DNA of 64,000 nucleotides from Apostichopus japonicus (Eukaryota; Echinodermata; Holothuroidea; Aspidochirotida; Stichopodidae), in contig NC_092577.1 of the NCBI RefSeq assembly GCF_037975245.1, positions 31,990,398 to 32,054,397 of the forward strand, given 5' to 3'. Shown here one piece after another: positions 8,816-59,697 of this stretch. Within the stretch, counting starts at the first letter, position 1. Every line of letters starts with the position of its first letter. The notes beneath the pieces are model-generated. The model searched no databases. It saw only the letters and a list, made by a program, of their open reading frames with translations, and had not been told where the DNA came from. The position numbers and the translations under genes were made by a program.

Positions 8816-11800
8816 TCAGCTGATGGCATTATCTCCCTCTCTCTCCTTGTAAAGTTCTTGCACCCATTCCTTCACCTCAGGATGTTGGAACTTTCCTGAG
8901 AGAGATGAAAATTTGTATCGTAATCAGTCGTGCCTCGATCAACGACACAAACCTACCGGCTACTCCCCAAATAATTTTTTTTGGAAAGGAATTGTTATCT
9001 GCAAAGTGCTAACTATAAAAAGAAATATAACCTTCCATATCTAGAGCAAACCGGAATGGGTAAGAACAAAGTTCTAAATAACCCCTTAAATTTCTACAGG
9101 CTTGCTTTAATTCTCACAAAATTCAGACAAGCAAACCAGCATAAGTGGCAAAGCAAAGTGCAGCCATAAACAAAACAAAAATTGACAAAATGAAAGTATA
9201 TTGGTCTGAAAGAAAAAGAGAGAGCTTTGTCAACTTTGTAATTGCTTAATCGTATGTATCTATGTATGTATTTTAGATCCTCCTGCAAGCAGGAACTCGC
9301 GAAGAAGCCATCATTGGCTTATCAAAGCAGCAAGCTGACTGAAGTCAGTCTCTTAGATTCATATTTAACGTCCATGATTATGAATTGTAACTGGACGACA
9401 TACATTAATCTTGGAGTGACTCAATCTCGCTCGGTACCTTATGATAATAACCAGCTACACATGCCACTGAACACTTTATCAATTTATGAGGTAAAAGAAT
9501 GTCTCAATACTAACAACGTTTACTCCCTGAACCTACCTGCTGTACTGTTGAAGAAAGTTTGTAGGTCCCCTTTCCTCTGTTCTTTCTTCTCATACTCGTG
9601 TGCTTGTGCGATCATGTCAAACATGTCGAGGTCCTTCACAAACTTGGCTTCGTTAGTCTGACGAGCCTCGTACTCCTACATGGAATATGAAGAATGTGTG
9701 ATAATACCCGTCAAAGGAGAGTTCCAAATGCAGGCAGTCGATTCGTTCATTTGAACAACTGTGTCAATTTTCTGTACAGACTGAGTAAAGGACCACATAC
9801 TGGTTAAAGGCATTGAAGACTCGCCCCAAACAGCGTGCCATGCTCTGAAAAAGTTAACTTTCCCTTGCTTGCAAGTGAAGTGTTTCTCTTGTCGCTACAA
9901 AATGCAGACAGTAATGAAACGTGATACCTTGTTATCTTTAGCTGGACCTGAGATGTCCATCGCTGTATGGTTTGTACACTGTGCTGTGGGTATTGACCGC
10001 AGCTGTATGTACTGACTGTACACTAGTGTCTAATTACCGACGGTAGCAAGCTGTGTGTGTTTTTTTTCTGAGATCGATGGTGGTGTCTAACAAAGCTGTT
10101 ACACCTCATTCGAAACTAGGTCAGATTCTGGCATTAGACATTTCTTTTTGAGCGAGTCTTCACACCCTTTAAGCATGATAGTGTACTGTACATGTTATTT
10201 CCATGACATACAGATTTCATTAATCTATCTAACTCTAACTAACTCATTTTACTTCTTATTACGACTTACTTTGGCAATGCAAATATCAAGGTGAAAAAAA
10301 AAATAGATATGATAAAATTTCACAAAATTACCTCATAAAGTTGACAGATTTCTAAACCAATTTCCTTTGGCAACAGTGATGTCATTTTGGTGATTGCATC
10401 CTGCAGAAATAAAATGTTAAATGAAATAGACCTGTATTCATTTTGGAAGAAGAAATGTTCTAGAATATATTATAAGAATATATTATAAATTAGGAATTGG
10501 ACAGGATAAAGACATCCATGCATCATGAATGCAGTTCTATTTTCAAATTTAAGAATGCAATAACCAATAAATACTGTCATCAATATAATAAACAGCACAC
10601 GACAAGAATTTTCTCAAAACAAATCATTCATAAACAGGCGCGTAGCCAAGGGGGGGGGCAAAGGGGGCAGCCTCCCCCCCCCTTGAGCATATATATATAT
10701 TTTTTTAATGTTTTTATGATATCGCTAGCATTTTCAAAAGAGAAAGTGCTAAGATGCAACTTACAAGGCCTGGGAAGTGCCATTTCCAGCGCTCTGGGAG
10801 GCATTTTCAGTCAAAATTTTCTAGTATGCTTCGCGCCAACCATGGTGGCGCTACGCTTAGATAGTTTGCAATGCCGAATCTACAGTTTCGCCCCTCCCTT
10901 GGCAAATTCCTGGCTACGCGCCTGTTCATAAATATGCGTAAAAAGTCAGAGAAAGCCATGTGTCCACTCCGAGAATGTTGCATCCAAGCAGACAAGCCTT
11001 GGGAATAGGCTTCTGCTAGCAGATCCAATATTAAAAGATGAAAGAGGTTAGTGCTAACTGTAATTCAGAAGAAAAGGATAGCTGTACCTTTTCTTGCCGA
11101 TGTTTCTCTTCATCACTAATGCCCTGGGATGGAGAAACATCTCCTACAATTGCTTCAGCCAAATCATGAACAATTGCTAACTTCATGCATCTGAAAGAAA
11201 AGTGATTGAATAATTATGAATATTAACATTGCAACCACACATCCCACTGTAAATAGGGACTCAATAAAAAGCATCATATCTGTCAAAATCATCGTTTTAA
11301 ATAATACAGATAATAAACACCACTATCACATTAGTGAAGGCAAAATACTATAATTCTACTTCTTTTTTTGTTGTTGCAAGGAATGAGCCATTAATGAATA
11401 TATGCAAAAATGAATACAATGACAAACATTTGTTTCATAGTACTTTCCCCCACCTCCCCCTCCCACCTCCAACCAAATATTAACATGCTTAAATGTGTTC
11501 ATAGATTTCAACGACCTTTCATTGACCTTGGAAGTACAGTATCCAGGATATATTTCCAAAATACAGCAAATGTTTAACTTGTAACACATTTTGGTGGAGG
11601 AAATACCTTGGTGCCAGTAAAGACATGTCTATTGAAGTATGAACTAGCTTATATGAAAGTATCTGGATGTAATACTGATAATTTTTATTAATTTCCTCAC
11701 CGTTCTTTATTCAAGCCCTCTTTATTAGTAATCAGCATAGTCATGACTGCCATTCTGTACATATGATCAGCCACACTTTCAGGTTCACATACACCATTTT

Positions 11801-57200: not shown

Positions 57201-59697
57201 AAGATGGTGAGTTATTGGCCCCTTCTATACAAATACCATGGAAGGCAGTATATACATTATATATGGATAGAGTTTGTATATGGCCGGAGGTTCCACGCCA
57301 GATTAAAAATTGGCTAAGGTTCTGGAGAGAGAAAATATAGAAGATATATATTTGATGTGAGGAAATATTTGTAGAACAGGCAGGTGTCGAGGAAAGACCA
57401 ATGGGGGTCAAGTTTCAAGGGTAAAAATAGTTTTTTTTTTTATTAAGAGGGTTTAATAAAGTGCAATTGTTTGATTTATTTTCTCTCGCGTCAAGTTGTC
57501 GCAGCGAATAGAACCGGCCTTGATTGATATGTATTAAATGAGACAGAGTACGAACGCGTAAATATATATATATGTCTATGTTTGACCACAAGGTTATATA
57601 ATTCGAATTCGTATTATTTATTGACTGCTTAAACCATATACAAGGCAACGTTTCAAGAAATTATTGACTTATTGAAATATAATTACAAAGGAATTTGAAA
57701 AAAAAAGGCAAAATGTGGATGTTTTGCTTTTGACAGCAACACCTGCTCGTGTCCGAACAATGGAATGGATTTTTTTTTTTTGGGGGGGGGGGGGTTATAT
57801 TTATTCAACTATTTAATATCTTACTACATTTTTTGTGGTCAATTTGAACGAGTGGGTATGAAAATAGCAAACTTAAAAGATACTTTTTTGACAATCCAGT
57901 TGTCTACATATAGTAATTATATTCGCGTCTATATTCTCATCTGTTTGCGATTGAAGTGTGGTACTAATGTTCCCAACTACACCACAAACGTATATCTATA
58001 TATAATGTAATATATGTTATTCATCTTTCTTTTTTTTTTTGCTTTTATTTAAGAAAATAAGTCTATTAAGTCATTGAATGTATTACTCAATGTCTTTACT
58101 CTTTTCTGCCTTTTTTTCTTCAGGGTTCAGCAAAACTCGAGAAAGCTGAAATTTTACAAATGACTGTCGACCATTTGAAGTATCTTCACGCCAAAGGTGA
58201 GAATTGTTGACATCCCCCCCCCACCCCCACAAACACATCTGTGATTGACCTTTTAGTCGGCATTTGACCCCTTTCAATAACGGACACAATAGGGAACATA
58301 TACCGATCTTGCTCCACAATATATTTTAAAACTGATGTGTGGGTTTCAAAATTAATCCTCAAAATATGTAGACACCTCCTTCCCCCACCCCCCCCCCCTT
58401 ATGTGTCCTCTCTCCCACCACACCTACCCACTCCCGAATGACTGGAAGCCAGTCTAGAAAGTTCAAAGGCAAATAGGAGAGGGAACAAAATGTTACAAAG
58501 AAACACACTGTTGTAATTGCTATAAACGCCCCCCCCACCTCCCCTACCATCACCACCCCCACCTCCCCTACCATCACCACCCAACTCCTCGCGAGCGAAA
58601 ACAACAACAACGAATGAACAACAAATATATGCTTAATTATCCGCAAAGTTGATCACAAAACAATCAAATCATAAAACTGTAAGATTTTTTCTTTATTGGC
58701 ACTTTTCTGTCATCATTTTGCAGTACTCAACAGGATACATAATTGTTTTATCTAACTAGTATCTAAGATACCTGGGAACCATTTGGGATGGGTGCAGGGT
58801 GGGTGTGGAGGGAGGGGGGCTGATCCCCATGTGAGGTGTTGAGGGTGCGGGGGTGGCTGATCCTCCCCTGAGGTGTTGTTTCCTAACTTTGAGTATTGTT
58901 CTTTCTTACAATGCTATATGCTGTCGCCAATTCTATTTCTTATGTGACCTATGACCGTTATCTTTACCCAGCAATTAAATGGGATTTTCCCTCTCTTTTA
59001 TTTCCCCCTGTTTTCATCAGGTATCGACGGCTCCTTTCATCCGTATGGCGAAGCCCACGCCTATGCAATGGACTATAGAGTCCTCGGATTACGAGAATGT
59101 GCTTCTGAAGTTGCGAGATATTTAGTCACCGTAGAAGGTATGGACTTACAAGACCCACTGAGGCTTCGGTTACTAAGCCATTTACAATGTTACATGGCGC
59201 AGAGAGAGATCCAGTCCAGACAACACTGGAATTCTGTGTCATCCGGTCACCCTGGTCAATTTCCATCACACACTCATGGACAAACCCCTGGTCTTCCCCA
59301 CAACTCGGTAACGTCGTCCGACCCACATGCGGCCGTCCTCCCTCCGCCCCCTACTGGACCCGGTCCAGAGAGTGTTGGAACGAGACAAATGCTTCCTATA
59401 ATGCCCACCACGAGTAACCATGAAAACCAACATCAAGGGTCTTGTCACTCGAGAATTCCGGCTCCACAACCCGGAAGTATAACAACCACGGCCGCGGGGA
59501 GTTGCAACACATCGACTAACCTTTCAACGCCAGTCGCTCCGTCCATCCCTGCCATACACCCCCAGTATCCAGTCACGTACAATAGCTTGCAAGTGCTTTC
59601 TCCTAATGGGTACAGTGCAACCAGTGGCGCCCATAATGCGCACACAACTATCGTTTCTAAACCATATCGTCCATGGGGCGCCGAAATGGCATATTAG
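51271..59697 (+). CDS. HEY: bHLH-Orange transcriptional repressor HEY (complete, 5 exons)
   Basis: Seen: exons 51271-51329, 52878-52926, 55146-55229, 58124-58196 and 59021-59697, with consensus borders and matching phases, encode 313 residues (human HEY1 about 304, HEY2 about 337). [15 protein letters not shown] is a HEY-type N terminus. The basic region [19 protein letters not shown] (about 32-50) carries Gly36 where Hes proteins have Pro, a HEY diagnostic. The HLH continues through [20 protein letters not shown] to about residue 88. The Orange domain (about 107-153) includes [17 protein letters not shown] and [15 protein letters not shown] Ser/Thr/Pro/His-rich region ends in [12 protein letters not shown], so YRPW is intact but the usual terminal TE(I/V)GAF is changed. 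Known: HEY proteins dimerise, bind E-boxes and repress as Notch effectors. Confidence 0.97.
52927..55145. other. HEY intron 2, contains SINE and CRE motif
   Basis: AT-rich intron. TGACGTCA lies at 54555-54562 next to a G10 run. A SINE-like element occupies about 54700-55095. No alternative exon was recognised. Confidence 0.6.
54700..55095 (-). mobile_element. tRNA-like SINE with duplicated head (HEY intron)
   Basis: On the minus strand: TTAGAGCGTTGTGGT (A-box-like), then GGTTCGAGTC (B box). A second copy of the same GTTGTGGTCAAGACTTGTGATTT-to-GGTTCGAGTCCTGGCC stretch follows. The body ends in GCGCCTTGAGCACCG, ATCGATGGATATGTCGGCGC and an ATTA-rich tail. The GCGC/GAGCACC tail resembles conserved metazoan SINE 3' domains, from memory. 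It is oriented opposite to HEY. Confidence 0.65.
55230..58123. other. HEY intron 3, gene-free with simple repeats
   Basis: Holds the AT-rich inverted repeat at 55990-56140, a G14 run near 56233 and several poly-A and poly-T runs. No exon or RNA gene was seen. Confidence 0.6.
55990..56140. repeat. (TA)n with flanking AGGCTATATA / TATATAGCCT
   Basis: Two AGGCTATATA units precede a long (TA)n run closed by TATATAGCCTATATATAG, an inverted arrangement like that at 45600-45755. Confidence 0.9.

Follow-up and report, generated by a model that had tools for sequence, protein, structure and literature searches.

Does a single locus in an animal outside the vertebrates still hold together genes that in human are divided between the surroundings of HEY1 and HEY2? 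We examined this question in a stretch of 64,000 nucleotides from the sea cucumber Apostichopus japonicus (positions 31,990,398-32,054,397 of NC_092577.1, here contig C17), referred to in its entirety as the window. The genome comprises 671.6 Mb in 35 contigs, with C17 (37.19 Mb) accounting for 5.5%. From left to right the window carries RPN2 (+), HDDC2 (-), MRPS28 (+), a 38.8-kb span in which no gene was recognised, and HEY (+), such that RPN2 and HDDC2 lie tail to tail. An earlier note, made from the sequence alone, had placed HEY, MRPS28 and HDDC2 within one interval, and this is borne out by the gene models, domain matches and exon borders obtained here.

The same note had held that in human HEY1 lies by MRPS28 on 8q21 and HEY2 by HDDC2 on 6q22, each accompanied by a gene of the TPD52 family. 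Published gene lists, as far as they extend, agree: that for 6q22 gives NKAIN2, STL, RNF217, TPD52L1, HDDC2, LOC643623, HEY2, NCOA7 and TRMT11 (PMC4657880), and that for 8q21.13 includes HEY1, MRPS28 and TPD52 together with further genes (PMC2966422). Set against these lists, the two human HEY regions retain complementary halves of the HDDC2-MRPS28-HEY group that is found whole in the sea cucumber. We consider it very probable that an ancestral cluster, copied in the two rounds of vertebrate genome duplication (2R) and then subjected to reciprocal loss, explains why the three genes stand together here and are split in mammals.

Identity and copy number of HDDC2, MRPS28 and HEY

All three genes were identified from spliced models (Table 1). 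HDDC2 reads from an ATG at 12527 to a stop codon whose final base is 8816, through exon borders of the AG/GT type, and its product matches the HD_3 domain (E=1.5e-48) and, best among solved chains, the human-type HDDC2 chain 4dmb (E=1.5e-55). The MRPS28 product matches PF10246 (E=7.1e-43), with mitoribosomal MRPS28/bS1m (S28) as its best matches among solved chains. Genome-wide profile searches were conducted exon by exon with scoring of the best candidates, from which a very divergent HEY copy could escape. Three exons across the genome matched HD_3 and two matched PF10246, all of them belonging to the HDDC2 and MRPS28 genes of the window, respectively.

The spliced HEY protein, which ends with a stop codon at 59697, carries an HLH domain (E=4e-16) as well as an Orange domain (E=5.5e-12); in the PDB it matches HEY1 best (2db7, E=4.9e-19) and HES-1 less well (2mh3, E=4.4e-10). 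A glycine in the basic region is characteristic of HEY proteins and a proline at that place of HES proteins. In the window gene the basic region, read across the splice 52926/55146, ends in RKKRRG and thus carries the glycine, where the aligned HES-1 chain has KPIMEKRRR; furthermore, the C-terminal motif is YRPW rather than WRPW. On these features, the predicted product is that of a true HEY gene. A scan for a first exon with a start codon found no convincing one; a proline-rich stretch, the sole weak candidate, was not accepted.

Six loci in the genome match the Orange domain, namely the window HEY and five on contig C11, and among 42 HLH matches the window HEY is the only one on C17. All five C11 loci are HES-like, with WRPW at the end of the protein or two residues before it, which rules them out as a second HEY. 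A HEY paralogue with the usual neighbours, named by the earlier note as a finding that would speak against its reading, was therefore not found among the six Orange matches. Since HDDC2 and MRPS28 match here alone in the genome, and one of the six Orange matches is HEY, the grouping of the trio is not a matter of chance. Separately, two of the HES-type loci (C11:8,079,459 and C11:11,823,995), 3.7 Mb apart, share 97.4% identity over 3.1 kb, representing either a recent duplication or an assembly copy.

The position of the animal relative to the vertebrate duplications was examined from its mitochondrial genome (contig C35, 16,099 bp). In the aligned part of COX1, nine of nine AAA codons fall on asparagine residues of a solved COX1 chain. 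Reading of AAA as asparagine belongs to the mitochondrial code of echinoderms and flatworms, of which we take the flatworm alternative to be unlikely here. The animal uses the echinoderm-type mitochondrial code and is hence not a vertebrate; because echinoderms branched off before the vertebrate duplications, it serves as an outgroup to them. The genes of the cluster are thus single-copy in a non-vertebrate, whereas in vertebrates the related genes are divided among several regions. Fragmented COX1 pieces were also observed at C29:14,745-31,219 besides the complete C35, corresponding to nuclear mitochondrial DNA or to a mis-assembled mitochondrial contig.

Table 1. Features located in the window (positions counted from its first nucleotide).
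Feature	Position	Strand	Basis
HDDC2, complete, six exons	12527-12459, 11825-11701, 11190-11088, 10400-10332, 9675-9537, 8895-8816	-	domain and chain matches
Inter-start gap HDDC2/MRPS28	12528..12824	.	candidate shared divergent promoter (from spacing)
MRPS28 (bS1m), complete coding region	12825-13261, 13984-14119	+	PF10246, mitoribosomal chains
Interval without recognised gene, 38.8 kb, simple-repeat-rich	14120..52877	.	codon score, inspection by eye, Rfam and tRNA scans
HEY, four coding exons found	52878-52926, 55146-55229, 58124-58196, 59021-59697	+	HLH, Orange, YRPW
RPN2 (ribophorin II), 3' part as far as recognised	1..4833; last exon(s) presumably beyond 4833	+	PF23861, PF23860, PF25147

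Probable reciprocal loss and the interval beside HEY

Under the preferred reading, the ancestral deuterostome order would have comprised HDDC2 and MRPS28 head to head, followed by HEY, the group being flanked by RPN2 at one end and by a SOGA/MTCL-type gene at the other. Slow rearrangement would have preserved this order in the echinoderm line, and in vertebrates 2R would have copied the region, after which different copies lost different members: the 6q22 copy would have retained HDDC2 and HEY2, the 8q21 copy MRPS28 and HEY1, and a copy on chromosome 20 RPN2 and SOGA1. We take the human strands to be TPD52L1 (+), HDDC2 (-) and HEY2 (+) on chromosome 6 and, with chromosome 8 flipped, TPD52 (+), MRPS28 (+) and HEY1 (+); given these strands, gene orientations in sea cucumber and human agree. 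The ancestral order postulated in the earlier note was described as chordate or bilaterian, and has so far been shown only to the depth of echinoderm plus vertebrate, that is, deuterostome. The sea cucumber locus provides a compact pre-duplication reference for the HEY1 and HEY2 regions, complete with order and strands, which allows the complementary losses that followed 2R to be traced one gene at a time.

An alternative reading accepts the cluster and assigns its persistence to selection rather than to slow rearrangement, either because HEY enhancers lie in the 39-kb interval and in the housekeeping genes themselves (a genomic regulatory block), or because HDDC2 and MRPS28 share a divergent promoter. 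In ancient microsynteny, or genomic regulatory blocks, a developmental regulator and its housekeeping neighbours are kept together over long times, such blocks being marked by conserved non-coding elements that regulate the developmental gene, and the present locus shares the setting of HEY beside housekeeping neighbours, a likeness of gene arrangement alone. Consistent with such linkage, HEY is a developmental regulator adjoining an interval without a recognised gene, next to two housekeeping genes in head-to-head orientation whose start codons are separated by 297 bp. Divergent gene pairs are defined by transcription starts on opposite strands within 1 kb of each other, and the start-codon spacing makes a divergent promoter common to HDDC2 and MRPS28 a plausible candidate; the gap itself has a G+C content of 36% and an ordinary CpG observed/expected ratio, 0.82 versus 0.74 for the window. 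The human 6q22 list likewise has just one LOC entry between HDDC2 and HEY2 (PMC4657880).

Within the MRPS28-HEY interval, codon scoring and inspection by eye (together with a Pfam search of one open reading frame (ORF) only) recognised no other gene, and Rfam and transfer RNA (tRNA) scans returned no match. The interval is a plausible candidate location of HEY enhancers, and hence a place to seek old ones. Against a functional hold on the cluster, RBPJ/Su(H) sites are not enriched in the window, numbering seven versus an average of 6.95 across 20 first-order Markov sequences, i.e. chance level, and no pair was found there in the sole arrangement searched (head to head at 12-20 bp spacing). A cluster of such sites marking a HEY control region was accordingly rejected as a candidate. 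Furthermore, HDDC2 and MRPS28 are parted in vertebrates, so that the pair is dispensable there. Taking both sides together, selection as the agent that holds the cluster is a real possibility that we nevertheless rate as rather unlikely. The interval also contains, at 20,379-21,061, 24,285-24,792 and 30,480-31,079, extended arrays of simple repeats (AT, ATAC, ATT) along with a tandem array of 42-bp/257-bp units.

A more specific extension may be formulated, which we regard as doubtful: the divergent HDDC2/MRPS28 pair and the adjoining interval might constitute an ancient HEY regulatory unit, intact in the deuterostome ancestor, which 2R broke twice in a complementary manner, so that HEY1 and HEY2 each kept half of the neighbourhood and came to have different regulatory territory. 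If true, this division of regulatory territory could underlie differing expression of HEY1 and HEY2.

RPN2, chromosome 20 and the wider contig

The window contains the second, third and C-terminal Ribophorin II domains of RPN2, the second slightly under cut-off, and its N-terminal domain (PF05817) and 5' exons were located in the 7.4 kb upstream. Inspection of 100 kb on either side of the window revealed that the next recognised gene to the right of HEY encodes a coiled-coil protein of the SOGA family on the minus strand. PF11365 (SOGA) has a single match genome-wide, at C17:32,116,337 (window coordinate 125,940, 62 kb right of the window); of two ORFs on the same strand matching this profile, one exceeds the cut-off (E=4.4e-17) and one falls under it (E=7.2e-5). 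Some eight further long ORFs at 72-160 kb were assigned to the SOGA gene by strand and appearance alone. We take SOGA1 to lie near RPN2 at human 20q11.23 and SOGA3 near HEY2 at 6q22.33, and presume that TLDC2 (beside SOGA1) and NCOA7 (beside HEY2) are both TLDc proteins; a literature search found nothing on SOGA3 together with NCOA7 and HEY2.

Published gene lists group SOGA1, TLDC2, SAMHD1, RBL1, MROH8 and RPN2 together both on horse chromosome 22 (PMC12340361) and on dog chromosome 24 (PMC9744541). Because the SOGA gene beyond HEY thus has a mammalian relative, SOGA1, near RPN2, RPN2 is probably no intruder but a member of the ancestral neighbourhood, a better reading than the suggestion of the earlier note that it might be lineage-specific or lost from the block. 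Since HEY is flanked by both genes of the chromosome 20 pair, chromosome 20 is best regarded as a third arm of that duplicated region, a link that we infer and that would connect human chromosome 20 (RPN2, SOGA1) at fine resolution with the 6q22/8q21 pair. Alternatively, RPN2 may have joined the spot in the echinoderm line without having belonged to the ancestral neighbourhood, as might be supposed from its location in mammals, where it does not share a chromosome with HEY1 or HEY2. The SOGA gene beyond HEY, with its relative near RPN2 in horse and dog, argues against such late joining, as do the placement of TPD52L2 on human chromosome 20, at 20q13.33 (PMC2966422), and a published four-fold paralogy whose discussion includes human chromosomes 8 and 20 (PMC2865548). 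We therefore consider late joining quite unlikely.

The gene content of C17 at large was also compared with the human HEY regions, using six families that were chosen, not blindly, from human-region neighbours or from the paralogon literature. The earlier note had proposed looking for a TPD52 homologue directly outside the window; the genome-wide search found none there, with both TPD52 matches lying at 12.46-12.47 Mb on the same contig, 19.5 Mb from the cluster, such that the adjacency seen on human 6q22 and 8q21 is not found here. NKAIN was also located on C17 (34.80 Mb), as were an OXR1/NCOA7-type TLDc gene (4.89 Mb; TLD matches also on C3, C10 and C15) and SERINC (4.73 Mb; further matches on C13). 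EYA gave four matches on C9 (4.67-4.69 Mb), none above cut-off, and stathmin two weak matches, also on C9. Four of the six families, and all three of the nearest human neighbours (TPD52, NKAIN2, NCOA7), therefore have matches on C17. The binomial chance of four in six on a contig comprising 5.5% of the genome is approximately 1e-4, a rough figure calculated by hand given that TLD and SERINC match four and two contigs, respectively. SERINC and the OXR1/NCOA7-type gene are also observed to lie only some 0.15 Mb apart, and SERINC1 and NCOA7 are, we presume, both on human 6q22.

That HDDC2, MRPS28 and HEY were assembled independently within the echinoderm line, the partial human pairings being unrelated, could draw on the single non-vertebrate genome considered and on the location of TPD52 away from the cluster, but is highly improbable, as it needs coincidence to account for the mammalian proximity of HEY to HDDC2 and to MRPS28, for the pairing of RPN2 with SOGA on a further mammalian chromosome, and for TPD52, NKAIN and OXR1/NCOA7 on C17. 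The reciprocal loss proposed in the earlier note is supported with respect to the single HEY, HDDC2 and MRPS28 genes here versus complementary human subsets, and is amended in that TPD52 does not lie just outside and RPN2 is probably not an intruder. Several points weigh against an ancestral cluster followed by reciprocal loss. With TPD52 distant, the full quartet is not intact, and two of the six wider predictions failed (EYA, and stathmin with its weak matches, both on C9). Support comes from one outgroup genome and published mammalian lists, and the human strands and the places of SOGA1 (20q11) and SOGA3 (6q22.33) enter as our assumptions.

Relation to published paralogons

The human regions concerned belong to a published context. 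In the opioid-receptor 2R paralogon, NKAIN, NCOA, EYA, MYB, SERINC and STMN quadrupled together, the four-fold set corresponding to chicken chromosomes 2, 3, 20 and 23 (PMC2865548). The main text of that study features neither HEY nor TPD52 and gives no pre-duplication local order, and HDDC2 and MRPS28 are absent from those of its family lists considered here. Unlike in that paralogon, the EYA and stathmin matches here do not share a contig with NKAIN and SERINC, which suggests that two older linkage groups, represented by C17 and, for EYA and perhaps stathmin, C9, are combined in the vertebrate paralogon. Studies of ancestral linkage groups match vertebrate chromosomes to pre-duplication groups (PMC7269912, PMC10927551), the hagfish study among them taking Apostichopus japonicus as an outgroup (PMC10927551). 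According to the latter, four of 17 vertebrate ancestral chromosomes each correspond to two or three sea cucumber linkage groups, a pattern that the C17/C9 split would fit if this region is among those four. Both studies operate at whole-chromosome scale, and in the parts of them considered here the local order of HDDC2, MRPS28 and HEY does not appear.

Among open-licence papers, supplements lying outside the search, no description of an HDDC2-MRPS28-HEY cluster was found, nor any match for HDDC2 with synteny; the cluster may figure in the supplements of large surveys devoted to conserved gene pairs. Duplication followed by reciprocal loss is a well-known process, and the chromosome-scale paralogy of these human regions has been published (PMC2865548); the local cluster is a clean new example.

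Further genes and repeats were observed in the flanks. Two ORFs situated left of RPN2 show weak matches to PF08626 (E=0.0011 and 0.0018, each below cut-off), so that a TRAPPC9 gene there is no more than likely. Approximately 44-90 kb left of the window, ORFs resembling cytochrome P450, a trypsin-like protease and a sulfotransferase were noted by eye. Finally, an array of 190-bp tandem repeats (15.4 copies within the 2917-bp part run through a repeat finder) lies inside the span ascribed to the SOGA gene, and the ORF motif of this array recurs outside the window at approximately 98,800-107,600 in window coordinates.

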